34,632 nucleotides of DNA from an uncultured bacterium (GTDB taxonomy: Bacteria > Bacillota > Clostridia > Lachnospirales > Lachnospiraceae). Below, one piece after another: positions 290 through 12,392 of the stretch (its first letter is position 1; each line of letters starts with the position of its first letter). The position numbers and the translations under genes are program-made. The notes beneath the pieces are model-generated. The model saw nothing but the letters and a program-made list of their open reading frames with translations. It was not told the origin of the DNA and searched no databases. The stretch covers positions 1-34,632 of the forward strand of contig CANDBT010000046.1 of the NCBI GenBank assembly GCA_947383005.1, read 5' to 3'.

Positions 290-1816
290 TTATCCAACAA
301 AAAAACCCTCAACGTTCCGTGAAGGCAGAAATACCGATGCCGGAAACCATTCATCGTCAGAAATAAGCTGCTTTTCGAGTGCTTCGATCTTTTTTCCCCA
401 TTCTTCCTGCGATATTTCTTCGGAACTTCGTTCTCCCTGCAGGGTACAGTCCCGTGAATAAAAGTAAAGATATCCCCCATCCTCCTGATAATCTTTGCGC
501 AATGCGTACAGGGGAAGCATATGCATTTCTCTGCCCTTTCCCTCAAACTGTCCCACAACCAGATACCACTCCCCGCCATAGTCATCCATAAAGATCATCT
601 GCCCGGTTTTCAGCGGAACAAAGCTTTCATGAAGAACCCCCAGGAAACGCAGGTTTATCCAACCGTTTTCATAAGATAAAACAGCAAAACTGCCCCATGC
701 ATGTTCAAAATCTTTGTAATCCGACTCATCCGGTTCATAACGGACGAGAAGTTCATCTTCCCCGTCATGATTGATGTCCATAAGAAGATATCGCCAAAGA
801 CATCTTCCCGTGTCCGGATCAGAAGAATAGTGGTAGGCGATACGACCTCGATCGGACAGATGTTTTACCCTTGAAAAATCGCCGGATAAAATTTCCTGGT
901 AGGCTTTCCATGCCTCCTGTTCGTTCTCCTCGACGACAAAGGAAACGTTTCCCTTTCCCTCATCCAAAGCATCCAGATAATCCCATTCTTCTTTGGGAAA
1001 AAGGGGAAACTGCCCGACCGGAAGTTCTGCATTTTGCCATACTTCCAAAAAGGCAGCCGCTGTTTCCCGGCAGTCGCTGTAGGAACATTCCTGGTCTGGT
1101 TTTGGCTGCGTTCCAAAGGGAACCTTAAAATAATGTCTGACGATTTTGATGGTTTCGCCCTCTTCTGCGGTCAAAGGAACTTCATCTTCTTTGGCAGTCA
1201 AGGAAATCCATTCATAAATATCCCCTCCTTCTTCCGGGAGCGGTGCATCAAAGGTCTGGGGGATTTTTCGCTTAGAGGAGGTAGAGGAATACACATTCGG
1301 ATCGGTAAAACAGGTTTCCAGCCGGTGGGAGATAAGAAAAGACCCATCGGCAAGGGGCTGTATCTGCGCAGACGAATAACGCCTGTAGTCATCAAAATCA
1401 TAGAGAAGTTCGACCTTCTGGTTTCGGAAGGTGTATATATGATAAATATTTCCGCCGTCAATGCAGAGCTCCGGCACCTGCTCCCCATTACAATCGACAA
1501 AGGCATAGGAGGCACGGCTGTCGCCCCGGGGATAGCGGTCTGTAGCGGTAAGGCTGTGCCAGTCCCCCGCGGCTAAGAACTCCCGGTAGGCGGCCATGGC
1601 CTCGTTTTTGGAGGCAATATTTCCCGTGAAAGGATTTTGTGGATCAGTATTTTCCAAGACATCCGTTTCCCGGGAAGGCGGGGCGGATGATTTAGCTGTT
1701 TCGGCGCTGCCCATACAGCCGGACAAAAACAAAAAGAGCAGGCTAAGGACAGAAAACAAAACCCGTTTCCTCCTTTTTGGACAATGGTTACGAAATGCAG
1801 CGGAGTGTTTTTTCAT
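290..1816 (-). CDS. Secreted lipoprotein with two internal repeat units, function unknown
   Basis: 508 residues. A basic N-terminus, a hydrophobic stretch at about residues 19-31 and a lipobox LSGC with the modified cysteine at residue 34 predict a lipid-anchored extracytoplasmic protein. A serine-, proline- and threonine-rich linker follows. The mature part seems to hold the same unit twice: AYREFLAAGDW followed by an acidic strand (FVDCNGEQVPEL), then AYQEILSGDFS followed by LLMDINHDGEDELLV. The second acidic strand resembles the Ca-binding D-x-N-x-D-G loops of FG-GAP or VCBS-like repeats. It follows recO after 58 bases on the same strand and may be its last cotranscribed gene. I do not recognise a named family. 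A four-codon reading frame (1827 to 1813, minus) overlaps the start codon as ATGA, and the AAAGAAAGG-like ribosome site sits closer to that mini-ORF. Confidence 0.85.
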   Translation of the reverse strand: MKKHSAAFRNHCPKRRKRVLFSVLSLLFLFLSGCMGSAETAKSSAPPSRETDVLENTDPQNPFTGNIASKNEAMAAYREFLAAGDWHSLTATDRYPRGDSRASYAFVDCNGEQVPELCIDGGNIYHIYTFRNQKVELLYDFDDYRRYSSAQIQPLADGSFLISHRLETCFTDPNVYSSTSSKRKIPQTFDAPLPEEGGDIYEWISLTAKEDEVPLTAEEGETIKIVRHYFKVPFGTQPKPDQECSYSDCRETAAAFLEVWQNAELPVGQFPLFPKEEWDYLDALDEGKGNVSFVVEENEQEAWKAYQEILSGDFSRVKHLSDRGRIAYHYSSDPDTGRCLWRYLLMDINHDGEDELLVRYEPDESDYKDFEHAWGSFAVLSYENGWINLRFLGVLHESFVPLKTGQMIFMDDYGGEWYLVVGQFEGKGREMHMLPLYALRKDYQEDGGYLYFYSRDCTLQGERSSEEISQEEWGKKIEALEKQLISDDEWFPASVFLPSRNVEGFFVG

Positions 1817-1874: not shown

Positions 1875-2531
1875 TTATGCATATCCCCCCAACGCCTTTA
1901 ATATTTTCAGCGATTGGAATTCCCTGTCAATAAACCGTTTTTTATTTTCGTCCACGCATAGCTTCAATTCCCTTTCCACATCTTTCTTCAAAACAAATGT
2001 ATACAATGACTCCAATGGGGCAGCAATGATGTATTCCCAGGCATATACTGCGGAATCGCCAGCCGGGCGCGGCGGCTTGGCAGTATACTCTCCATTTGCC
2101 GCCATCGCGCGCAGTTCAAATACCAGTTGGACCAGGGAATTGGGCAAAGATGGTTTCAAAAGCGCCCGCATGGATTGATACAGTAGCAGAAGCAGTTCGC
2201 TTCCGTCCAGATTTTCCCGGCTGTAGTAATCGGCAAATTCCAGAAAATAGAATCCATAGCAAGCGGTTTCCATATCCCTGGCAATATCCGTAAAATAATT
2301 CTTCGCCTCTGCCCGAGCCAGGCGATACGCGTCTTTTCCCTCATACAGATAAAAATTTGCAAAAACAAAAGGCTGGCTGGCCGCCATCAGAGGACTGCCT
2401 GGCCTTTTCGCGCCGCGGGCGAATGCCGTAATTTTTCCTCTTTCCCGGGTTAATATAACCAGCCGCCGGTCATATTCCCCCACCGGAGACGCTTTCAGCA
2501 CCATACCGGTAAAGGTTAATAATTCTCTCAA
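1875..2531 (-). CDS. recO: DNA repair protein RecO
   Basis: RecO binds SSB-coated single-stranded DNA and, with RecR, helps load RecA during gap and break repair. The 218 residues begin with the family's OB-fold signature (FTGMVLKASPVGEYDRRLVILTRERGKITAFARGAKRP). A helical domain follows with CYGFYFLEFADYYSRE. The start is taken as TTG at 2531 because GAGGAGG lies seven bases upstream. The first in-frame ATG, at codon 10, would remove the first OB-fold strand. Many Gram-positive RecO proteins have a four-cysteine zinc site in the second half. Here that stretch (around NGEYTAKPPRPAGD) has no CxxC pair, so the zinc site appears lost and the protein is somewhat short. It lies 44 bases downstream of the NusG domain II gene, a pairing that suggests one operon. 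Confidence 0.93.
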   Translation of the reverse strand: MRELLTFTGMVLKASPVGEYDRRLVILTRERGKITAFARGAKRPGSPLMAASQPFVFANFYLYEGKDAYRLARAEAKNYFTDIARDMETACYGFYFLEFADYYSRENLDGSELLLLLYQSMRALLKPSLPNSLVQLVFELRAMAANGEYTAKPPRPAGDSAVYAWEYIIAAPLESLYTFVLKKDVERELKLCVDENKKRFIDREFQSLKILKALGGYA

Positions 2532-2575
2532 TTAGCCGCCTCCTCTTTCAGGATCGTTAGCACTCTATTTTACTG

Positions 2576-2965
2576 TTAGTCTCCGACTATTTGAACTATC
2601 ATTAAATTGGGCAGGCAAACAATTATATCCCCATCCTTGGACTGTTTTCCCTGACGAATACAGACTTTGTCCGGGCAGGAGGCTTCGGAACACCAAATCT
2701 GCCCATCCTGGACGATCAAATGGTTCGTCCCATTACGGGCGCCGTCAACGGTAATTTCCTGATTTTTCGACAAATCGAGAATCGCTGTCTGTTTTCCGTC
2801 AACCGTAACTTCTGCCCGTATAGCCGGAACCCGATGACGAAGATAATATCCCAGGCCCAATATAGCAAAAATCGCCAATAAAATAACAATCAGAATCACG
2901 TCCGGTTTCTTAATTGCCCGATTGGCTTTAGCGCTAACCATATTGGCCTTGCTGCTTTTATCCAT
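2576..2965 (-). CDS. Membrane-anchored NusG domain II protein
   Basis: 129 residues from the chosen start. A basic cytoplasmic N-terminus is followed by one membrane segment (about residues 23-41) and an outer domain of the NusG_II family (Pfam PF07009). The signature cysteines are visible in CSEASCPDKVCIRQGK and IIVCLPNLMIVQIVG. The family is a small beta domain first seen as an insert in some NusG proteins. As a stand-alone membrane protein its role is not established. ATG at 2965 is preferred to the ATG five codons upstream because GAGGTGG sits six bases before it, inside the longer frame. It heads the run NusG_II, recO, lipoprotein on the minus strand. Confidence 0.85.
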   Translation of the reverse strand: MDKSSKANMVSAKANRAIKKPDVILIVILLAIFAILGLGYYLRHRVPAIRAEVTVDGKQTAILDLSKNQEITVDGARNGTNHLIVQDGQIWCSEASCPDKVCIRQGKQSKDGDIIVCLPNLMIVQIVGD

Positions 2966-3065
2966 AACCGTCCACCTCATTATTCCTTAATTCTAAAACA
3001 CCTCAAATCGCTCATTTTTTCTGCGAAAACTGGTTACTTTTCGGTATTTTTAGGGTCCCAAGTTC

Positions 3066-3104
3066 AAAAATCCTCTTGCAGGCATGCTTGCATCGGATTT
3101 TTTT
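3066..3104 (+). terminator. Terminator-like hairpin with T tract
   Basis: AAAAATCC at 3066-3073 pairs with GGATTTTT at 3095-3102. Inside, TGCA at 3077-3080 pairs with TGCA at 3089-3092 around an 8-base loop containing GCATGC. The T run continues to 3104. No gene on the plus strand ends just upstream, so what it would terminate is unclear. Confidence 0.5.
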
Positions 3105-3107
3105 GAC

Positions 3108-3126
3108 CTTTTGACCCTGGTATCAT
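3108..3126 (+). repeat. Dispersed repeat cttttgaccctggtatcat, copy 1
   Basis: These 19 bases recur exactly at 10109-10127. The last 13 recur on the opposite strand at 28101-28113. All copies are intergenic. Confidence 0.7.
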
Positions 3127-3132
3127 ATCATA

Positions 3133-3159
3133 CTTCCTTTTATAAGGGAAGATTTTTTT
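3133..3159 (+). terminator. Rho-independent terminator-like hairpin
   Basis: CTTCCTTT at 3133-3140 pairs with AAGGGAAG at 3144-3151, with one G-T pair and a 3-base loop, and is followed directly by A and seven T (3152-3159). This is a textbook terminator shape on the plus strand, yet no plus-strand gene precedes it in the window. Confidence 0.55.
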
Positions 3160-3205
3160 CATCAAGCGGTTGAAGCGGCGCCATCTGCGATACTGTTCAG
3201 ATAGA

Positions 3206-3263
3206 TCTGCGCAGAGTCTGCCCCAGCGAAGCGAGGGTACTTGCTGCGCTGACCGTACGACAT
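3206..3263 (-). repeat. Dispersed intergenic repeat, copy with perfect 34-base core
   Basis: Read on the minus strand, the 34 bases 3239-3206 match 15088-15121 on the plus strand exactly. The core contains CCTCGCTTCGCTGGGGCAGA. A 27-base part (3210-3236) recurs at 26098-26124. The outer part, 3263-3247, matches 10126-10142 in 16 of 17 bases, just after the cttttgaccctggtatcat module there. The copies look like pieces of one modular repeat. Confidence 0.75.
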
Positions 3264-3333
3264 CGTGCCCTTTGGGTATAACTTGGGCCGGCGAGCAAAA
3301 ATCCTTCTACACTCCGTTTCGCTCAAATAACCC

Positions 3334-3376
3334 AACCACAAAAGACTGCTGCGTTATGCCGCAGTCTTTTGTGGTT
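3334..3376. terminator. Strong inverted repeat, possible bidirectional terminator
   Basis: AACCACAAAAGACTGC at 3334-3349 and GCAGTCTTTTGTGGTT at 3361-3376 form a perfect 16-bp stem with an 11-base loop. The stem carries A and T runs on its arms, so it could act in either direction. It may insulate the gene at 3502 from the divergent minus-strand operon. Confidence 0.5.
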
Positions 3377-3466
3377 CCAAGGGAAAACCTTATCAGACAA
3401 GCAAACGCTACATCTGAACTAATACATCTGTTGTCATACAACGTGCAAACTGGCTGTGAAATTTCC

Positions 3467-3495
3467 TTGCTCTTTTCTTTATAAAATGATATACT
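3467..3495 (+). promoter_or_regulatory. Extended -10 promoter giving a possibly leaderless mRNA
   Basis: TGATATACT (3487-3495) is an extended -10 element. A weak -35, TTGCTC, is at 3467-3472 with 17-base spacing. Initiation about seven bases after the -10 falls at 3501-3503, on or next to the ATG at 3502. No Shine-Dalgarno sequence precedes that ATG. Confidence 0.55.
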
Positions 3496-3501
3496 CTGTC
3501 T

Positions 3502-4179
3502 ATGATGAACCAATATATTATTTCATTTTTCCGCACCTTGTCAGACCACACGGTAGACAAAACCCTGTTTGTCTGCGGCCTTTTTTTGTCTGCCTGCGAA
3601 CTCTATAAACAAATATTTATCTATGTTGCCGTCAACCACGGCTATTATGACTGGTGGTATTTCCCTTTCCAGCTTTGCAGCCTGCCTATGTACTTATGCC
3701 TGCTGCTCCCGTTCCTTCCGGCTGGCCGTGGAAAAACAGCCTTCTATACGTTCATGCAGGATTACCACCTTCTCGGGGGTATCGCCGCATTGATTGTGCC
3801 GGAAGGATTTTCCCATATCCACTGGACATTAACTCTCCACGGATATCTTTGGCATATTCTCCTGCTCCTGATCAGCCTGTTTATCTGGATTAGCGGACGA
3901 AGCGATTTAAGCGCCAGGGGATTTGTACGCACCCTCCCGATATTTTCCGTCTGCTCCGCAATCGCCACGATAATCAATCTGCTGACGCCGGGACACGGAC
4001 AGGCCAATATGTTTTATATCTCCCCTTACTATCCCAACGTCCAGTTTATCTTTCACTGGATCGCCCTCCGTTTGGGCATCCACCCTGCCAACCTGCTATA
4101 CCTTTTGGCCATCTCCCTGGGCGCAGGTATCATCCATTTCCTATTGGGAGCCGCAGAAAAAACCGGCAACGCCTTCTGA
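3502..4179 (+). CDS. YwaF / TIGR02206 family integral membrane protein
   Basis: 225 residues, almost all hydrophobic, with about six or seven membrane helices. Family-like features include the YDWWYFPFQLCSLPMYLCLL segment, HGYLWHILLLLISLFIW and a final NLLYLLAISLGAGIIHFLL helix. I recognise this pattern from the YwaF / TIGR02206 group of putative membrane proteins, whose biochemical role is unknown. The first two codons are both ATG. No ribosome site is visible before either, and the promoter position suggests translation starts at or very near the 5' end of the mRNA. It converges with the MATE gene, with only 15 bases between the two stop codons. Confidence 0.85.
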   Translation: MMNQYIISFFRTLSDHTVDKTLFVCGLFLSACELYKQIFIYVAVNHGYYDWWYFPFQLCSLPMYLCLLLPFLPAGRGKTAFYTFMQDYHLLGGIAALIVPEGFSHIHWTLTLHGYLWHILLLLISLFIWISGRSDLSARGFVRTLPIFSVCSAIATIINLLTPGHGQANMFYISPYYPNVQFIFHWIALRLGIHPANLLYLLAISLGAGIIHFLLGAAEKTGNAF

Positions 4180-5782: not shown

Positions 5783-6286
5783 CTATAGTTTCAGCCGCTG
5801 ATAGCTCGCAAGCAGTTCCTGGTCGCTTATCCTGCAATTGGCCGGGCTGGTAGACGGCAAAGCTATGCAGGGACGGTCATACTTTGGTTCGCAATATTTT
5901 CGATACAATGCCGCCGCTTTGGCGCCTGTAGTAAATATGGCTTTGATATCGGCATACTGCAATATCACATCCAAATCGTTGATAACCGGATTTTGGATGC
6001 TGGCATCCTCCGCCCCGCGGATACTGCAGCTTGCCAGCACATCCCATAACGCCATGTGGTTGCGCAGGGCCAACTGCTTTTTCTCCTCAACCGTAACAGG
6101 TTCTTTCTCCCCGAACACCTGTGCCACTACTTTCCAAAACCGGTTCCTCGGATGTCCATAATAAAACCCCTGCTCCCTGGATTTAGGGGAGGGTATCGTC
6201 CCTAATACTAAAATCCGGGATTTTTCGTCAAACAGAGGACCAAATTCATGAGTCACTTTTTCTGTTTTGTTCGCTGCTCTTGCCAT
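5783..6286 (-). CDS. DNA-deoxyinosine (hypoxanthine) glycosylase, UDG superfamily
   Basis: 167 residues. Motifs of the uracil-DNA glycosylase superfamily branch that removes hypoxanthine (TIGR04274-like) are clear: GTIPSPKS (residues 29-36), GHPRNRFW (44-51) and LPSTSPAN (143-150). The enzyme would excise deaminated adenine, and possibly uracil, starting base excision repair. Length is typical. The start ATG follows an AAAGG / CAGG purine stretch. It is on the same strand as the MATE gene, but 226 bases with a hairpin separate them, so it is probably monocistronic. The AT-rich island begins just upstream, divergently. Confidence 0.88.
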   Translation of the reverse strand: MARAANKTEKVTHEFGPLFDEKSRILVLGTIPSPKSREQGFYYGHPRNRFWKVVAQVFGEKEPVTVEEKKQLALRNHMALWDVLASCSIRGAEDASIQNPVINDLDVILQYADIKAIFTTGAKAAALYRKYCEPKYDRPCIALPSTSPANCRISDQELLASYQRLKL

Positions 6287-6411: not shown

Positions 6412-6440
6412 TTGAAAGAAATGAACGATATACGTATAAT
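6412..6440 (+). promoter_or_regulatory. Sigma-A type promoter of the nuclease-methyltransferase operon
   Basis: TTGAAA at 6412-6417 and a perfect TATAAT at 6435-6440 are separated by 17 bases. Transcription would start near 6447, leaving a leader of about 50 bases before the ATG at 6496. Confidence 0.75.
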
Positions 6441-6485
6441 AATATCACAATGCAATATTCTTTGTACATAATAAAAGCGAGAAAA

Positions 6486-6505
6486 GGAGAAGCAAATGAA
6501 GAACC
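6486..6505 (+). repeat. 20-base near-identical segment at island gene start, left copy
   Basis: Matches 9493-9512 at 18 of 20 positions. The last 15 bases, agcaaatgaagaacc, are identical. Each copy covers part of the ribosome site, the ATG and codons 2-3 of the gene that follows. The two copies bracket the two-gene island. Confidence 0.6.
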
Positions 6506-7413
6506 TGGCTGTAAAAACATTTGGAGTCCTGAGGAATTTATTCTTCGATAAAAGCAGTAAGCCTATTAAGTTTCCTCTTCGTGAAAAACGTAATACGCAA
6601 GATGATCCTTTTGACGAATATATATCAATGGCTTTAGATGATAAATTACAAGAACACGGGGCAAGATGCCAGAGATCCTCAGGACCGCTTATAAGCCCTG
6701 ATATGGCCGTAGTATCAATTGGAATAAATATCGAAAGCGATAACATTAATAATAATCCAGAAGAAATTATAGGAATTGAAGTAAAAAAGCTCGAAAGAAC
6801 AGCAAATGGAAAAATTGCAAGGCCAACGGGGATAGATTACAACTCAACCCCGCCATGTGGCCGGGTAAAGATTTACACTTCTAATAATGAGCCATTAATG
6901 ATAAAAAGTTATTACCTTTTCGCATGCTTAGAAAACGATGAATCCGGAAATTATTTTGTTAGCGCCATGTGCCTTTGTGATGGAAGTATCTTAAACGATG
7001 ATTATGGCCTTTATTTGCAAATAACAGGATCAAGAGAGAAAGGGATCAACATGGGAACTTATGGTGACGGGGCAAACAGGAACAGACCAATGCTGATTTT
7101 TTCAAACCCTTTAGGCGCTGATTTTTTAGACCATAAAATTACCTTGGTAAGCGAACTTGATTTAGGGGAACGGATAGATAATATAGAATTAGTTTGGCGG
7201 TTTATTAGAAAAGACGTTGAGGGAGTAAATCATACTTTTTATGCGTATATGGACAGCCAGGATAATTTGGGCAGCCAACCAGTGACAAATGTCATCGAAC
7301 CGTTCCCCACACCGCGCAACCGGGTTAGTGAGACGCAGGAAAGAGGAAAATTTAAGCTTTTGAAGTATTATGAGGAGCTTGATAAAATATGGCCAAGCAA
7401 AAACAACGACTGA
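6496..7413 (+). CDS. Putative type II restriction endonuclease, PD-(D/E)xK fold
   Basis: 305 residues, with no named family recognised. SPDM with Asp69, then 26 residues later E95-V96-K97 inside IIGIEVKKLER, fits the PD-x(n)-ExK catalytic signature of metal-dependent DNases. It is followed by the unusual stretch IARPTGIDYNSTPPCGRVKI and a beta-rich YYLFACLEND segment. The gene has its own promoter and an AAGGAGA ribosome site five bases before ATG. Its last 25 bases overlap the methyltransferase gene at 7389, implying coupled translation. Restriction activity is inferred from motif plus partner. The base composition is AT-rich: 15 G+C in 6721-6780 against 27 in 26401-26460. This supports acquisition by transfer. 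It might instead be a methyltransferase accessory subunit or a DNA-binding protein with a degenerate nuclease fold. Confidence 0.65.
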   Translation: MKNLAVKTFGVLRNLFFDKSSKPIKFPLREKRNTQDDPFDEYISMALDDKLQEHGARCQRSSGPLISPDMAVVSIGINIESDNINNNPEEIIGIEVKKLERTANGKIARPTGIDYNSTPPCGRVKIYTSNNEPLMIKSYYLFACLENDESGNYFVSAMCLCDGSILNDDYGLYLQITGSREKGINMGTYGDGANRNRPMLIFSNPLGADFLDHKITLVSELDLGERIDNIELVWRFIRKDVEGVNHTFYAYMDSQDNLGSQPVTNVIEPFPTPRNRVSETQERGKFKLLKYYEELDKIWPSKNND

Positions 7414-9443
7414 TAGAAAAAGGATTTCCTTTTGCCCAGTTAAGTGCCATTGCTGAGCAGGAATCCTGGCGTAAAGAAATAAACAGACCGCCTTCTTATA
7501 TCCATAAGTGGTGGGCCCGTAGGCTGGGCAGTATATTCAGGGGACTAATAATCGGAGGATTTGAGGATTCGAACGGAGATTTCTTTGACAAATATTATAA
7601 GCATACAATCTATAAAAACAAGATCGTGTTTGATCCTTTTATGGGAAGCGGCACTACTGTTCATGAAGCCGTTAAACTGGGAGCTAAGGCATTAGGGGCT
7701 GACATTAATCCTGTAGCCGTTTCAATGGTTCGGGCATCACTGGATACATATAGCCGCGAAGACGTAATTGCCACATTTGAACAAATTAAATCGAACTGCA
7801 GTGCAAAAATAAAAAAATATTACAAGGCTCCGTTTCGGGAAGAGATAGTTGATGTTTTATATTATTTTTGGGTAAAAGTGGCTATATGTGGAGAGTGCGG
7901 GACTGAAGTGCCTCTCACAAAAAGCTGTGTATTTTCAAAAAACGCGTATGTGTCTAAAAAGCCAGAAGCAAGAGCATTGTGTCCTCATTGCCTGCATATT
8001 AATAAAGTTCTCTATTCTGATACAAATGCCGAGTGCAAAAAATGCAAGAAACATTTTAACCCGCAGCAAGGCAATGTCAAAGGTTATGATTATATTTGCC
8101 CTGTGTGCGGAAAAAAAGAACGCATAATAGATTATATGCGGCGCAAAGGCAGTACGCCCAGGGAAAAAATGTATGCAAAAATGATTATTGATCATTCTGG
8201 CAAAAAACATTATGTAGATATCGAAGAATCTGATATTCACTTGTATAAGGAAGCTCAGAGAGCGCTTCCCGAATATCAGGAATTTATACCTAATGATAAA
8301 ATACATGATGGAATAAATACCCGGCAAATACTGAATTATCAATACAGATATTGGAGAGAAATGTTTAATGACAGGCAACTGCTGTCTTTTGGTATACTCT
8401 CGAAAGAAATAATGTCTATCAGGGATGAACAATTAAGAAGGTTATTTGCTGTCTTATTGAGTGGAACTTTGGAATTTAATAATATGTTTTGTTCTTTTAA
8501 AGGTGAAGGAACTGGAGCCGTGCGTCCACTATTTTACAATCATATATTGAAGAATGAATTAATGCCATTAGAGGCAAATCCATGGGGACATAAAGCATCA
8601 TCGGGATCTTTTTCAACATTGTTTGAGACAAGAATAAAAAGAATGCTGGATTACAAGGAAAATCCTTTTGAATTAAAAATTCTTCCAGGAAAAAAATCTG
8701 AGAAAGTTTTTCTTAATGGATGCAAAGACGAAGCTAAAGTTGCCACTGAAGAAAACTGGGATGCTGGCAATAGCATAATATTATGTAAAGATTCCGCCCA
8801 CATAGATATCATGGATGAAAGTGTCGATTTGGTTGTAACGGACCCGCCGTTTTTTGATAACGTAAATTATTCTGAGCTGGCAGACTTTTTTTATGTATGG
8901 TTAAAAATGTTTAATATAGGCGTCGGGTCTCTGGATGTCGACTCAACTCGTGGAAAAGAGGATGTTCAAGACAACGAACCAGAGTCATTCTCAAGAAAAC
9001 TATGCGATGTTTTTAAAGAATGCAACAGAGTGTTGAAGCAAGAGGGCAGGCTTATTTTCACATACCACCATTCCCGCACTGAAGGCTGGGTGTCTGTTTA
9101 TAACGCTCTTACAAATGCCAGGTTTTCTATATGCCAGGTTATTCCGCTGAAAGCAGAAATGTCCGTGTCTGTCGCCATTATAGCGGCAAAAGAACCAATT
9201 AACTATGATTTGGTGTTTGTATGCAAAAAGCAGGATGATTTTGAACAAATGTGTTTTCCCTCTGATGTAACAGGCCAATATAATGACTACATTGAGAAAA
9301 TCAAAGAGAAATGCCTCAAATTCTCAGAAGGCGACAAGCTGATTTTAAAATATGGGCTTTCCTTAAAATATTTATCGGAATTGGGAATACAAAATATTGG
9401 TAAAGAGGATATTGAAAAAATTGTAATTACCATAACCAATTGA
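7389..9443 (+). CDS. DNA methyltransferase with zinc ribbons (COG1743 / DUF1156-like)
   Basis: 684 residues. The N-terminus (LIEKGFPFAQLSA, then PPSYIHKWWARRLGS at 34-48) resembles DUF1156-type adenine-specific methylases. The SAM-binding motif FDPFMGSGTT is at 81-90 and the catalytic TDPPF at 484-488, continuing DNVNYSE. About 400 residues separate the motifs. They hold four CxxC knuckles (168/171, 198/201, 216/219, 237/240), enough for two zinc ribbons, and a likely target-recognition region. The motif order, SAM site before catalytic site, is that of amino-methyltransferases modifying N6-adenine or N4-cytosine. Start at 7389: GAGGAG lies 11 bases upstream, inside the nuclease gene. It should modify the host sites cut by the upstream nuclease. 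No specificity subunit, helicase or ATPase gene is adjacent, which argues against BREX or type I/III systems. Confidence 0.88.
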   Translation: MAKQKQRLIEKGFPFAQLSAIAEQESWRKEINRPPSYIHKWWARRLGSIFRGLIIGGFEDSNGDFFDKYYKHTIYKNKIVFDPFMGSGTTVHEAVKLGAKALGADINPVAVSMVRASLDTYSREDVIATFEQIKSNCSAKIKKYYKAPFREEIVDVLYYFWVKVAICGECGTEVPLTKSCVFSKNAYVSKKPEARALCPHCLHINKVLYSDTNAECKKCKKHFNPQQGNVKGYDYICPVCGKKERIIDYMRRKGSTPREKMYAKMIIDHSGKKHYVDIEESDIHLYKEAQRALPEYQEFIPNDKIHDGINTRQILNYQYRYWREMFNDRQLLSFGILSKEIMSIRDEQLRRLFAVLLSGTLEFNNMFCSFKGEGTGAVRPLFYNHILKNELMPLEANPWGHKASSGSFSTLFETRIKRMLDYKENPFELKILPGKKSEKVFLNGCKDEAKVATEENWDAGNSIILCKDSAHIDIMDESVDLVVTDPPFFDNVNYSELADFFYVWLKMFNIGVGSLDVDSTRGKEDVQDNEPESFSRKLCDVFKECNRVLKQEGRLIFTYHHSRTEGWVSVYNALTNARFSICQVIPLKAEMSVSVAIIAAKEPINYDLVFVCKKQDDFEQMCFPSDVTGQYNDYIEKIKEKCLKFSEGDKLILKYGLSLKYLSELGIQNIGKEDIEKIVITITN

Positions 9444-9445
9444 GC

Positions 9446-9460
9446 GTAACCGTTCAAATA
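9446..9460 (+). repeat. gtaaccgttcaaata, second copy
   Basis: An exact 15-base match to 5660-5674, two bases after the methyltransferase stop codon. The other arm of the palindrome seen at 5660 is missing here. Confidence 0.65.
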
Positions 9461-9492: not shown

Positions 9493-9512
9493 GGAACAGC
9501 AAATGAAGAACC
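9493..9512 (+). repeat. 20-base near-identical segment, right copy
   Basis: Partner of 6486-6505 (18 of 20 identical). It covers the ribosome site and first codons of the C_GCAxxG_C_C gene. Confidence 0.6.
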
Positions 9513-9976
9513 AGAATATGAATCATCACAAAGAAAAAGCAAAGGCTTATTTTCTGGAAGGTTACAACTGCGCCCAATCCGTACTTCTGGCCTATCATGA
9601 AGAACTTGGCCTGGAAAAAGAAACTGCTGCCCGCCTGGCCAGCTCCTTTGGCGGCGGAATGGGGCGCCTCCGGGAAGTATGCGGCACATTCAGCGGTGTA
9701 CTCCTGGCTGCCAGCCTCTTTTATGGCTACAGCGATCCCAAAGATATGGCCGGAAAAAAGGCCCAATACGAGCGGGTACAGGCTTTGGCCCGCACCTTCC
9801 GGGAACACCATGGCAGCATCATATGCCGTGAACTTCTGGGACTGGATCACCATTCGGATGCCCCCACGCCTTCCCTCCGCACCGCCGAATATTACAAAAA
9901 ACGCCCCTGTGCCGACTTGGCTGCAGATGCCGCACAAATTTTGGAAGATTTCCTGAAGGAAAACCCTCCCCAGTGA
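9503..9976 (+). CDS. C_GCAxxG_C_C family putative redox protein
   Basis: 157 residues matching the family named for its cysteine pattern: GYNCAQSV (Cys23), GGGMGRLREVCGTFSG (Cys60), IICRELLG (Cys108) and RPCADLAADAA (Cys136). The conserved cysteines are thought to bind metal or act in redox chemistry, but substrates are unknown. The family is common in anaerobes. GAGGAA six bases before the ATG supports this start. Base composition returns to the host type from here, so the AT-rich island ends just upstream. No clear terminator separates it from the methyltransferase, so read-through is possible. Confidence 0.85.
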   Translation: MKNQNMNHHKEKAKAYFLEGYNCAQSVLLAYHEELGLEKETAARLASSFGGGMGRLREVCGTFSGVLLAASLFYGYSDPKDMAGKKAQYERVQALARTFREHHGSIICRELLGLDHHSDAPTPSLRTAEYYKKRPCADLAADAAQILEDFLKENPPQ

Positions 9977-10188: not shown

Positions 10189-10644
10189 ATGAAAGAAAAC
10201 AATCAACCCCTGATCCTGTTCACCAAAAGATTACTGGATTTATTGTTTGGCCTGGGAATTTTGCTGACCTCGGCCATTCCGTTGATTTTCCTCCATGTAG
10301 GAAACTATATTGAAAGTTTTCGCCGGTATTATATTGCCCAAACGGCTCTCTACATGTTTTCCGGTATATTCAGCCTGGCCATTTTATGGGATTTACACCG
10401 CATGCTTGCCACTGTTCTCGCCGACAATGCCTTTATCGATGCCAATGCTGCCTCTTTAAAACGCATGAGCAAATCCGCTTTTCTCATCGCACTGACTTCT
10501 CTTGTACGCATATTTTTCTCACCTACTCCAGCCACGGTAGTCATTATCCTTGTATTTTCCATTGCCGGGCTGTTTTGCCTTGTCTTGTGCCAGGTATTTG
10601 AAAAGGCCATCCAATACAAAAAAGAAAACGATTTAACCATTTAA
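10189..10644 (+). CDS. DUF2975 family membrane protein
   Basis: 151 residues with four predicted membrane helices (about residues 14-36, 47-68, 92-110 and 115-137). The NAFIDANAASLKRMSKSA segment and the VFEKAIQYKKENDLTI end are typical of DUF2975 proteins. They usually sit directly upstream of a small Cro-like regulator, exactly as here. Function is unknown. A signalling or sensory role in concert with the regulator is often assumed. An AAAGGAG site six bases before ATG supports the start. It is the first gene of an operon with the two that follow. Confidence 0.85.
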   Translation: MKENNQPLILFTKRLLDLLFGLGILLTSAIPLIFLHVGNYIESFRRYYIAQTALYMFSGIFSLAILWDLHRMLATVLADNAFIDANAASLKRMSKSAFLIALTSLVRIFFSPTPATVVIILVFSIAGLFCLVLCQVFEKAIQYKKENDLTI

Positions 10645-10671: not shown

Positions 10672-10890
10672 ATGGGAATCATCATCAATTTAGACGTAGT
10701 CATGGCGAGAAGAAAAATCGGTCTCACGGAACTTTCCCGAAAAGTAGACATCACTATGGCCAATCTGTCTGTTCTTAAAAACAATAAAGCAAAAGCCATC
10801 CGCTTTTCTACCCTGGAAGCTATCTGCCAGGCCCTGGACTGCCAGCCTGGCGACATTATTACTTATGTAAAAGAGGAGGAACCATCATGA
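10672..10890 (+). CDS. Small Cro/CI-type HTH transcriptional regulator (YozG-like)
   Basis: 72 residues forming little more than one helix-turn-helix: ARRKIGLTELSRKVDITMANLSVLKNNKAKAIRF, then STLEAICQALDCQPGDIITY. This matches the YozG-like XRE regulators paired with DUF2975 membrane proteins. AAGGAG lies six bases before the ATG. The gene is 27 bases after DUF2975 and its stop overlaps the next start as ATGA, so all three genes should be cotranscribed. The 21-bp palindrome at 10028 is a candidate binding site, by inference only. Confidence 0.92.
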   Translation: MGIIINLDVVMARRKIGLTELSRKVDITMANLSVLKNNKAKAIRFSTLEAICQALDCQPGDIITYVKEEEPS

Positions 10891-12392
10891 GCAATTTGTC
10901 CAAAGAAGAAAAATCCCTGCGTTTAAAACCAATTCGGGACAATTTCCCCTTTTTTGCGGGAATCAGCCTGTTTTTCGGACTGCTGTATTCTTTCTGCCTT
11001 TATCGCAATCCCTGCGGCATTACTTTCCCTTTGCTGGTCACAGCCGGCTGCGGATGCTGCCTGGCTGTCTGCAAAAAACTGTCTGTCCCCATCAAAAAAG
11101 GAAGCTGGTTCCTTTTGGCCATAGCCATGCTTATCGGTATTTCCACCTTCCTCACCGCCAATCCTTTTATACACTTTTTTAATAAAGTTGCCTTAATCCT
11201 GCTATGCGCCGTGTTTGCCCTCCATCAATGCTATAACGAAAAGCATTGGAACTTAGGCAAGTATTCGGCCTCCATCCTATTGTTTTTTTGTCAGGCTCTG
11301 GCCGCCTTGCCGATACCCTTAATGCATGCGTTCCATTACAGAAAAGAAGCAGGCTCCCCAAATTACATTATACTTTTGCTGTTTGCCCTGGGCTTTATCG
11401 TCGCCATGCCCATATCCCTGATTTTGATTGTCCTTTTATCCCAGGCGGATGCTGTATTTTATTCCATGGTAATATGGTGCCTCAAACCGCTCTTTTTCCC
11501 CGGCCCTCTGATTGTTATTGCTTTTCAGATTGCCTTCGGCGCCCTGGCTCTGTACTGCATAACCTGTTGCTGCTGCCTTGGCAAAATCCCGGAAACCGTA
11601 CCCAACCGGCAATTTATCCATCCGGCCGTGGCCGCCGCCTGCACAGGAAGCATTTCGCTGCTTTATCTGCTATTTTGTGCTATCCAGATTGTTTACCTGT
11701 TTCTCGGAAAAGGCAGCCTCCCGGAAGGTTACACCTACTCTTCCTATGCCCGGCAAGGATTTTTCCAGCTTTTGTCCGTTGCATTTTTTAACCTGGCAAT
11801 GATACTGTTCTGCTTAAAATACGTCCGGCCTCATCCGGCGCTGCGGCTAATCCTGAGCGTTATCTGCGGCTGTACGTATATCCTTATTGCTTCCGCCGCT
11901 TACCGGATGATGCTTTATGTGGGCGAATACCATTTGACCCGTCTACGAATACTGGTATTGTGGTTTTTGGCCCTCCTTTTTGTCCTGATGGCCGGAGTCA
12001 CGCTGATTCTGTGGAAACCGAAGTTCCCTTTATCCTGGTTTTTTATCGCCACCGTATCAATTTTTTATGTCGGCTTGTCGCTGGCACGTCCGGATGCCAT
12101 CATTGCCCGGGATTACGTAAGCCGCATAGAGCCTGACTCAATAACCGTGCTTCAGCTTAAATATCTGTCCGAAAATTTATCTGCCGACGCCGCGCCCGCC
12201 GTCTCCTCTTTAGGTTTTTCCCTGGATGAGCTCCAGCAACGAATCGGCACCTACCCCGGGACAGGATGGTTCTGGACCATAGCCCGTCACCCTGGCCCCA
12301 AACATCACTACACCTATCCGGACAGTATCCGGACCTGGAACTATTCCATTGGGACGGCCCGTCAGCTTTTTGGGGAAAAAGCAAATAAATAA
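10887..12392 (+). CDS. Large polytopic membrane protein, DUF4153/DUF4173-like
   Basis: 501 residues with about 11-12 membrane helices, then a soluble tail of about 100 residues after residue 400. The pattern YTYSSYARQGFFQLLSVAFFNL and YHLTRLRILVLWFLALLFVLMAG is what I associate with DUF4173/DUF4153 proteins, which often sit beside DUF2975 and YozG-like genes. The tail includes DAIIARDYVSRI, consistent with a short post-membrane domain of the family. Function is unknown. The start overlaps the HTH stop by four bases (ATGA), with AGAGGAGG-like purines before it. The family name is less certain than the membrane nature. Confidence 0.78.
   Translation: MSNLSKEEKSLRLKPIRDNFPFFAGISLFFGLLYSFCLYRNPCGITFPLLVTAGCGCCLAVCKKLSVPIKKGSWFLLAIAMLIGISTFLTANPFIHFFNKVALILLCAVFALHQCYNEKHWNLGKYSASILLFFCQALAALPIPLMHAFHYRKEAGSPNYIILLLFALGFIVAMPISLILIVLLSQADAVFYSMVIWCLKPLFFPGPLIVIAFQIAFGALALYCITCCCCLGKIPETVPNRQFIHPAVAAACTGSISLLYLLFCAIQIVYLFLGKGSLPEGYTYSSYARQGFFQLLSVAFFNLAMILFCLKYVRPHPALRLILSVICGCTYILIASAAYRMMLYVGEYHLTRLRILVLWFLALLFVLMAGVTLILWKPKFPLSWFFIATVSIFYVGLSLARPDAIIARDYVSRIEPDSITVLQLKYLSENLSADAAPAVSSLGFSLDELQQRIGTYPGTGWFWTIARHPGPKHHYTYPDSIRTWNYSIGTARQLFGEKANK

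Follow-up and report, generated by a model that had tools for sequence, protein, structure and literature searches.

A putative Type II restriction-modification pair in a Lachnospiraceae genome with a nuclease family unnamed in the searched libraries

An uncultured bacterium of the Lachnospiraceae (assembly GCA_947383005.1, contig CANDBT010000046.1, positions 1 to 34,632; the whole of this 34,632-nucleotide stretch is referred to as the window) carries two overlapping genes, for a 305-residue protein and a 684-residue DNA methyltransferase, which raise the question of what kind of system they form together. The first-pass annotation had taken them for a compact restriction-modification pair, and this is supported here by the constant association of the two genes, by an invariant PD...ExK active site and by a structure model whose best matches are Type II enzymes. 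It is highly probable that the pair is a Type II restriction-modification system of ordinary format with a nuclease family unnamed in the searched libraries, its activities, a site common to both enzymes and protection of the host being inferred. The features of the pair are listed below.

6496–7413, forward strand: putative PD-(D/E)xK restriction endonuclease, 305 residues (open reading frame, model, alignment)
6697–6702, forward strand: predicted catalytic P68-D69, both invariant
6778–6786, forward strand: predicted catalytic E95-V-K97, E and K invariant
7389–9443, forward strand: DNA amino-methyltransferase, 684 residues, N6-adenine methylation predicted (PF01555, 1.6e-17; PF02086, 4.8e-6)
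7632–7658, forward strand: methyltransferase motif I, DPFMGSGTT, residues 82–90 (sequence, alignment)
7887–8108, forward strand: zinc-ribbon segment, residues 167–240, between motifs I and IV (Cys columns of the alignment; divergence with nuclease type)
8424–8663, forward strand: residues 346–425, LEFNN..SFKGEGTGAVR, the best conserved part of the region that separates motif I from motif IV (alignment)
8841–8852, forward strand: methyltransferase motif IV, DPPF, residues 485–488 (sequence, alignment)

The nuclease and its constant partner

Searches with the nuclease or its alignments led to 16 loci, and in all of them a methyltransferase of the same family adjoins the nuclease; absence of the pair elsewhere is excluded. 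These loci are the window, L002, L003, L004, L005, one each in genomes G471 and G528, a second locus in G444, and those of G910 (where both genes are in pieces), G1385, G1315, G1357, G1359, G1499, G1510 and G1511. Five further pairs (L013–L017) were obtained through methyltransferase searches, and of the resulting 21 pairs 14 are in tandem with the nuclease first and 7 are convergent. The converse does not hold, as no nuclease homolog is present at L012 or at 4 of the 8 loci inspected among 143 plasmid records with a methyltransferase match. On the viral contig L012 the methyltransferase relative (1906–4107) follows a 606-residue open reading frame (14–1834) with a DGQHR motif, which we take to be DndB-like, suggesting that the partners of this methyltransferase family include defence genes of other kinds. 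On a Streptomyces cellulosae plasmid (L018, 3962–6049) a relative without a nuclease has a large hypothetical gene and a helicase-related gene next to it. The 8.2-kb Tabrizicola plasmid (L015, 4592–6936) carries the pair followed by a DUF262 gene and a gene for a HEPN-like nuclease of the MAE_28990/MAE_18760 type, possibly a small defence cluster.

The residues D69 and E95-V-K97 that the first-pass annotation had picked out in the 305-residue protein are present, and P68, D69, E95 and K97 are unchanged in 20 of 20 aligned nuclease homologs, window included, an invariance beyond what chance would give. The alignment omits L077, in which the gene is broken, and its L074 row lacks the N-terminus, being a 235-residue open piece that starts after an in-frame stop. 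In the AlphaFold model of the window nuclease, which is of medium confidence, the best structural matches are the Type II enzymes SwaI, EcoRV, NlaIV and HincII; these matches span residues 3–217 with 8–20% identity in the listed alignments, and residues 172–208 and 269–305, the latter at the C-terminal end, have no confident model. The comparison with the PD-(D/E)xK fold comes out in favor of the assignment, at the level of prediction.

No significant match to the window nuclease was found in Pfam, NCBIfam, PADLOC, PHROGs or PDB sequences, which were searched with a single sequence or a profile (NCBIfam with the window protein only), and within these libraries its placement outside the named families is borne out. 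Sub-threshold matches to GABAtrns_euk, DUF956, Pectate_lyase22 and a chitinase chain were taken for chance. A Rhodococcus homolog (L016, 3208–3957) is annotated as a "DUF956 family protein", probably a misannotation given a score of 14.4 bits against a cut-off of 26.9. A search of the open literature, apart from REBASE and non-open papers, gave no paper about the pair among the matches listed, as judged by title and start of abstract.

In alpha-class DNA amino-methyltransferases motif I is followed by a target-recognition region and then by motif IV, and a DPPY/F motif points to N6-adenine methylation. The window enzyme has the alpha-class order, with motif I at residues 82–90 (81–90 in the first-pass annotation, which was otherwise right about the overlapping 684-residue frame, the DPPF at 485–488 and the four CxxC pairs between), an insert, and DPPF/Y at 485–488. 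All 22 methyltransferases of an alignment that leaves out L002 and L077 show motif I, a long insert and motif IV (DPPF/Y) in this succession, with small substitutions in motif I. Its best PADLOC match is HmaB (1.9e-27), and it also matches NCBIfam DUF1156_antiphage (1.9e-35, 122 bits against a cut-off of 1000) and Pfam DUF1156 (17.9 bits, below the gathering cut-off of 24), so the label "COG1743/DUF1156-type" is only approximate. It is the sole full-length member of its family in the genome, three other weak matches (E 2.5e-4 to 8e-4) being short motif stretches. A fold search returned general methyltransferase matches including CcrM, none of them under E 0.001, and the structure model (pTM 0.49) is too weak for placing the zinc ribbons on DNA. 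In a paper on BREX relatives (PMC12839542), DUF1156 is reported to be a helical domain that related methyltransferases carry at their N-terminus, the recognition insert of these enzymes coming after a core strand.

Partner exchange and the zinc-ribbon segment

The nuclease homologs fall into subfamilies A, B and C. In the nuclease tree B forms one clade (100/100), whereas A is left unseparated from C, whose members lie within it; 46% of bootstrap trees recover A as a single clade. In the methyltransferase tree, on the other hand, the A enzymes of Streptomyces share a clade with L018 and the actinobacterial B enzymes (100/100), and the nuclease-free L012 is joined by L014 and L015, the two B enzymes of alphaproteobacterial origin (100/99). 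Forcing groups together in approximately unbiased (AU) tests was costly in every case: 174 log-likelihood units for the B methyltransferases (p-AU 1.4e-41), 217 for the A methyltransferases (p-AU 4.7e-7), 156 for the A and C methyltransferases (p-AU 1.4e-59), and 171 for the Streptomyces A and actinobacterial B nucleases (p-AU 1.0e-60). The groups were chosen with the nuclease relationships already known. Subfamilies B and C sit on very long branches (5.6 and 5.3, respectively) and L013 and L073 on long ones as well, the broken L077 was left out, and the L002 methyltransferase, cut by a contig end, was used in part. From the strong conflict between the two trees we infer that the nuclease and methyltransferase genes have recombined and their partners have been exchanged.

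The segment between motifs I and IV contains four CxxC pairs, C167/C170, C198/C201, C216/C219 and C237/C240. C198, C201 and C216 are conserved in 22 of 22 aligned methyltransferases, and the partner of C216 is absent in seven actinobacterial B rows, which have Gly-His in its place. The first and fourth pairs are lost jointly in L012, L014 and L015 (L015 retains one Cys of the first), and outside these three the first pair and C237 are retained, with Gly-His often taking the place of the last Cys. Judging by this pattern of loss, pairs 1 and 4 and pairs 2 and 3 may form two zinc sites, of which the 1+4 site would be optional.

In order to compare the zinc segment (residues 160–260) with the core (20–160, 260–425 and 471–615), 19 methyltransferases were taken pairwise, with L002 and L077 left out. 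At a core identity of 62–70%, enzymes with the same type of nuclease are 51–64% identical in the zinc segment (13 pairs, mean 57%), whereas A-B pairs are 34–47% identical (27 pairs, mean 40%). At a core identity of 45–52% this contrast is nearly gone, with 36.0% for 28 same-type pairs, 32.8% for 69 others and overlapping ranges; the pairs are not independent, and the A-B contrast represents one split on the tree. The results are suggestive, not conclusive, evidence that the zinc-ribbon segment is the part that must match the nuclease. The earlier proposal that the zinc ribbons serve as target reader fits the motif order and the divergence with nuclease type, but it stands unproven on one evolutionary split. 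The idea that the relatedness of their methyltransferases gives subfamilies A and B a common site was given up after the zinc-segment comparison. It is conceivable, though rather doubtful, that the zinc-ribbon insert serves as a dedicated recognition module, replaced along with the nuclease partner; the methyltransferase core would then have moved between two or more nuclease subfamilies (A and B), and the exchange would have brought in a new zinc segment, allowing recognition to be re-matched between the two separate Type II proteins.

Signals, flanks and distribution of the cassette

The two reading frames overlap by 25 bases in different frames. The signals around them and the flanking genes are as follows.

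6412–6440, forward strand: sigma-70-like promoter TTGAAA-17-TATAAT (consensus match only, 11 of 12 bases), ending 55 bases 5' of the nuclease start codon
6484–6489, forward strand: ribosome-binding-like AAGGAG before the nuclease gene (sequence reading)
9440–9457, forward strand: weak terminator-like hairpin at the end of the methyltransferase gene (consensus match only)
5783–6286, reverse strand: left flank, DNA-deoxyinosine glycosylase gene (TIGR04274, 2.1e-36)
9503–9976, forward strand: right flank, C_GCAxxG_C_C redox protein gene (PF09719, 4.6e-36)

The promoter, which had been called strong, is supported by its position upstream of a start codon preceded by AAGGAG, but the scan statistic gives no support, as the whole region has 14 promoter-like matches against 11.0 +/- 2.8 in shuffled sequences. 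The G+C content of the pair is 37.8%, compared with 47.2% in the rest of the window, and lies below that of all 255 equal-sized windows outside the pair on the same contig (minimum 44.6%), but a 400-kb genome sample contains 102 windows as AT-rich among the 1720 of that size, and for this reason composition alone is weak evidence of import.

In three genomes from the same genus the two flanking genes adjoin with no pair between them (L033 in G021, L035 in G004 and L039 in G013), and none of these genomes gave a nuclease match. Given this arrangement, the pair probably entered as a 3-kb cassette that came to lie between two host genes. Close homologs of the right-flank gene (70–79% identity) occur at 13 loci besides the window, three of which are the pair-free sites; at the other ten the left-flank gene was not seen within at most 1.5 kb on that side. 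At the far left of the window a 508-residue open reading frame (290–1816, reverse strand) with no Pfam match at 1e-5 lies beside a RecO gene (1875–2531).

The nuclease occurs rarely and in scattered genomes, as would be expected if the system moves horizontally. It is present in 1 of 61 relatives and 1 of 397 genomes of the family (the window's own genome both times), in 2 of 398 of the phylum (the window's own and a decayed copy), in 3 of 295 of the genus and 5 of 345 of the class of the Streptomyces genome G444, and in 4 of 64 from the phylum to which the Latescibacterota genome G443 belongs, with G444 and G443 counted. In the decayed pair (L077, G910 contig C97, 32500–41500) the nuclease and the methyltransferase are each split across reading frames. 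On the viral contig L005 the nuclease follows open reading frames that read, by eye, like recombinases and prophage lysis genes, and the subfamily B nuclease is found on four plasmid records. The window nuclease gave no tblastn match in phages or plasmids, a second viral scan with the nuclease alignment again returned L005 only, and the subfamily B nuclease had no match in phages or viral contigs.

The six-base palindromes most under-represented in 400 kb of the window's genome (seen/expected) are GTTAAC (5/29), GGGCCC (5/21), AGGCCT (14/52), CAGCTG (34/118) and GAGCTC (10/35). GAGCTC, GGGCCC, GTTAAC and CAGCTG are also under-used in a 320-kb sample of the sister genome G018, which has no nuclease match. 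As there are several candidate palindromes and unknown other systems, no site is proposed.

Alternative readings and comparison with known systems

In the proposed Type II system the overlapping genes would probably be expressed from one promoter, the 684-residue enzyme would methylate a base, predicted to be adenine, in a short site of the host DNA, the zinc-ribbon-containing insert between motifs I and IV would help to read this site, and the 305-residue metal-dependent PD-(D/E)xK nuclease would cut incoming unmarked DNA. The format is that of adjacent, separate nuclease and methyltransferase genes, with an active site in a nuclease of predicted fold. There is no ATP-dependent translocase or separate specificity subunit, the flanks being host genes that are adjacent in the three pair-free relatives, and a Type I or III system was rejected since no specificity or helicase gene lies beside the pair; among 18 open reading frames of the window scanned with Pfam, the helicase-nuclease frames (matching UvrD, ADDB_N and PDDEXK_1) are at 15.2–22.6 kb.

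The methyltransferase matches to HmaB and DUF1156_antiphage agree with a reading of the pair as a remnant or reduced form of a multi-gene DUF1156/Hma/BREX-related defence system, the small protein being an accessory subunit and not an independent site-specific enzyme, as does the fact that distant relatives at L019 and L021 stand beside DUF499 genes and small proteins of another family. However, the upstream proteins at L019 and L021 are unlike the nuclease homologs in BLAST (best E 0.31), the DUF1156_antiphage score falls far short of its cut-off, the flanking genes of the pair (5783–6286, 9503–9976, 10189–10644 and 10887–12392) match no helicase or ATPase family in Pfam, and the pair recurs among differing neighbors, all of which makes this origin quite improbable. 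Specificity for modified DNA cannot be read from sequence, and the nuclease could accordingly be imagined as methyl-directed or, like Type IV enzymes, modification-dependent, cutting foreign DNA that is methylated, beside a methyltransferase with another role, but a nuclease that cut the mark of its constant partner would be lethal, and with that partner adjacent at every nuclease locus we regard this as very unlikely indeed. A cassette that is restriction-modification by descent and inactive here would have a parallel in the decayed copy of G910, but neither gene of the window is truncated or lacks any of its motifs, translation signals are present, and inactivity is quite unlikely; this case overlaps with the Type II reading, so that the probabilities do not sum to one.

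Read as a Type II system, the pair is ordinary in kind and new as a member as far as the searched libraries show, adding a nuclease family named in none of the five. A review (PMC4081073) states that thousands of putative Type II enzyme genes are known from genomes and that Type II enzymes of unrelated specificities generally have no shared sequence similarity. The family ranges over Streptomyces and others of its class, the phylum of the Latescibacterota genome, the window's phylum, alphaproteobacterial and actinobacterial plasmids and two viral contigs. Thanks to the constant methyltransferase partner, the nuclease site can readily be identified by methylome sequencing. Newly found Type II enzymes can be of use as reagents, and partner exchange together with zinc-segment divergence offers a testable case of how restriction halves stay matched after a swap.

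EcoRV, HincII, SwaI and NlaIV may share with the window nuclease a PD-(D/E)xK core of similar size, as predicted by the model, and like it have a separate adjacent methyltransferase gene, whereas in sequence they are unlike the window nuclease, at the low structural-alignment identity given above and with no PDB sequence match. The HmaB/DUF1156 anti-phage methyltransferases, which are COG1743-like and have a Zn-ribbon, share with the window enzyme the N6_N4 methylase domain and the order of motif I, a long Cys-containing insert and motif IV, but their profiles are 960–973 residues long, compared with 684 residues here. HmaB has helicase and ATPase genes as partners in the Hma system, whereas the scanned flanking genes of the pair match no such family and none adjoins it. 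Plasmids of Acidiphilium, Tabrizicola, Rhodococcus and Tomitella carry unnamed pairs in which a homologous subfamily B nuclease gene overlaps the same kind of methyltransferase gene; their nucleases are 21–24% identical to that of the window and are annotated as hypothetical or, below threshold, as "DUF956".
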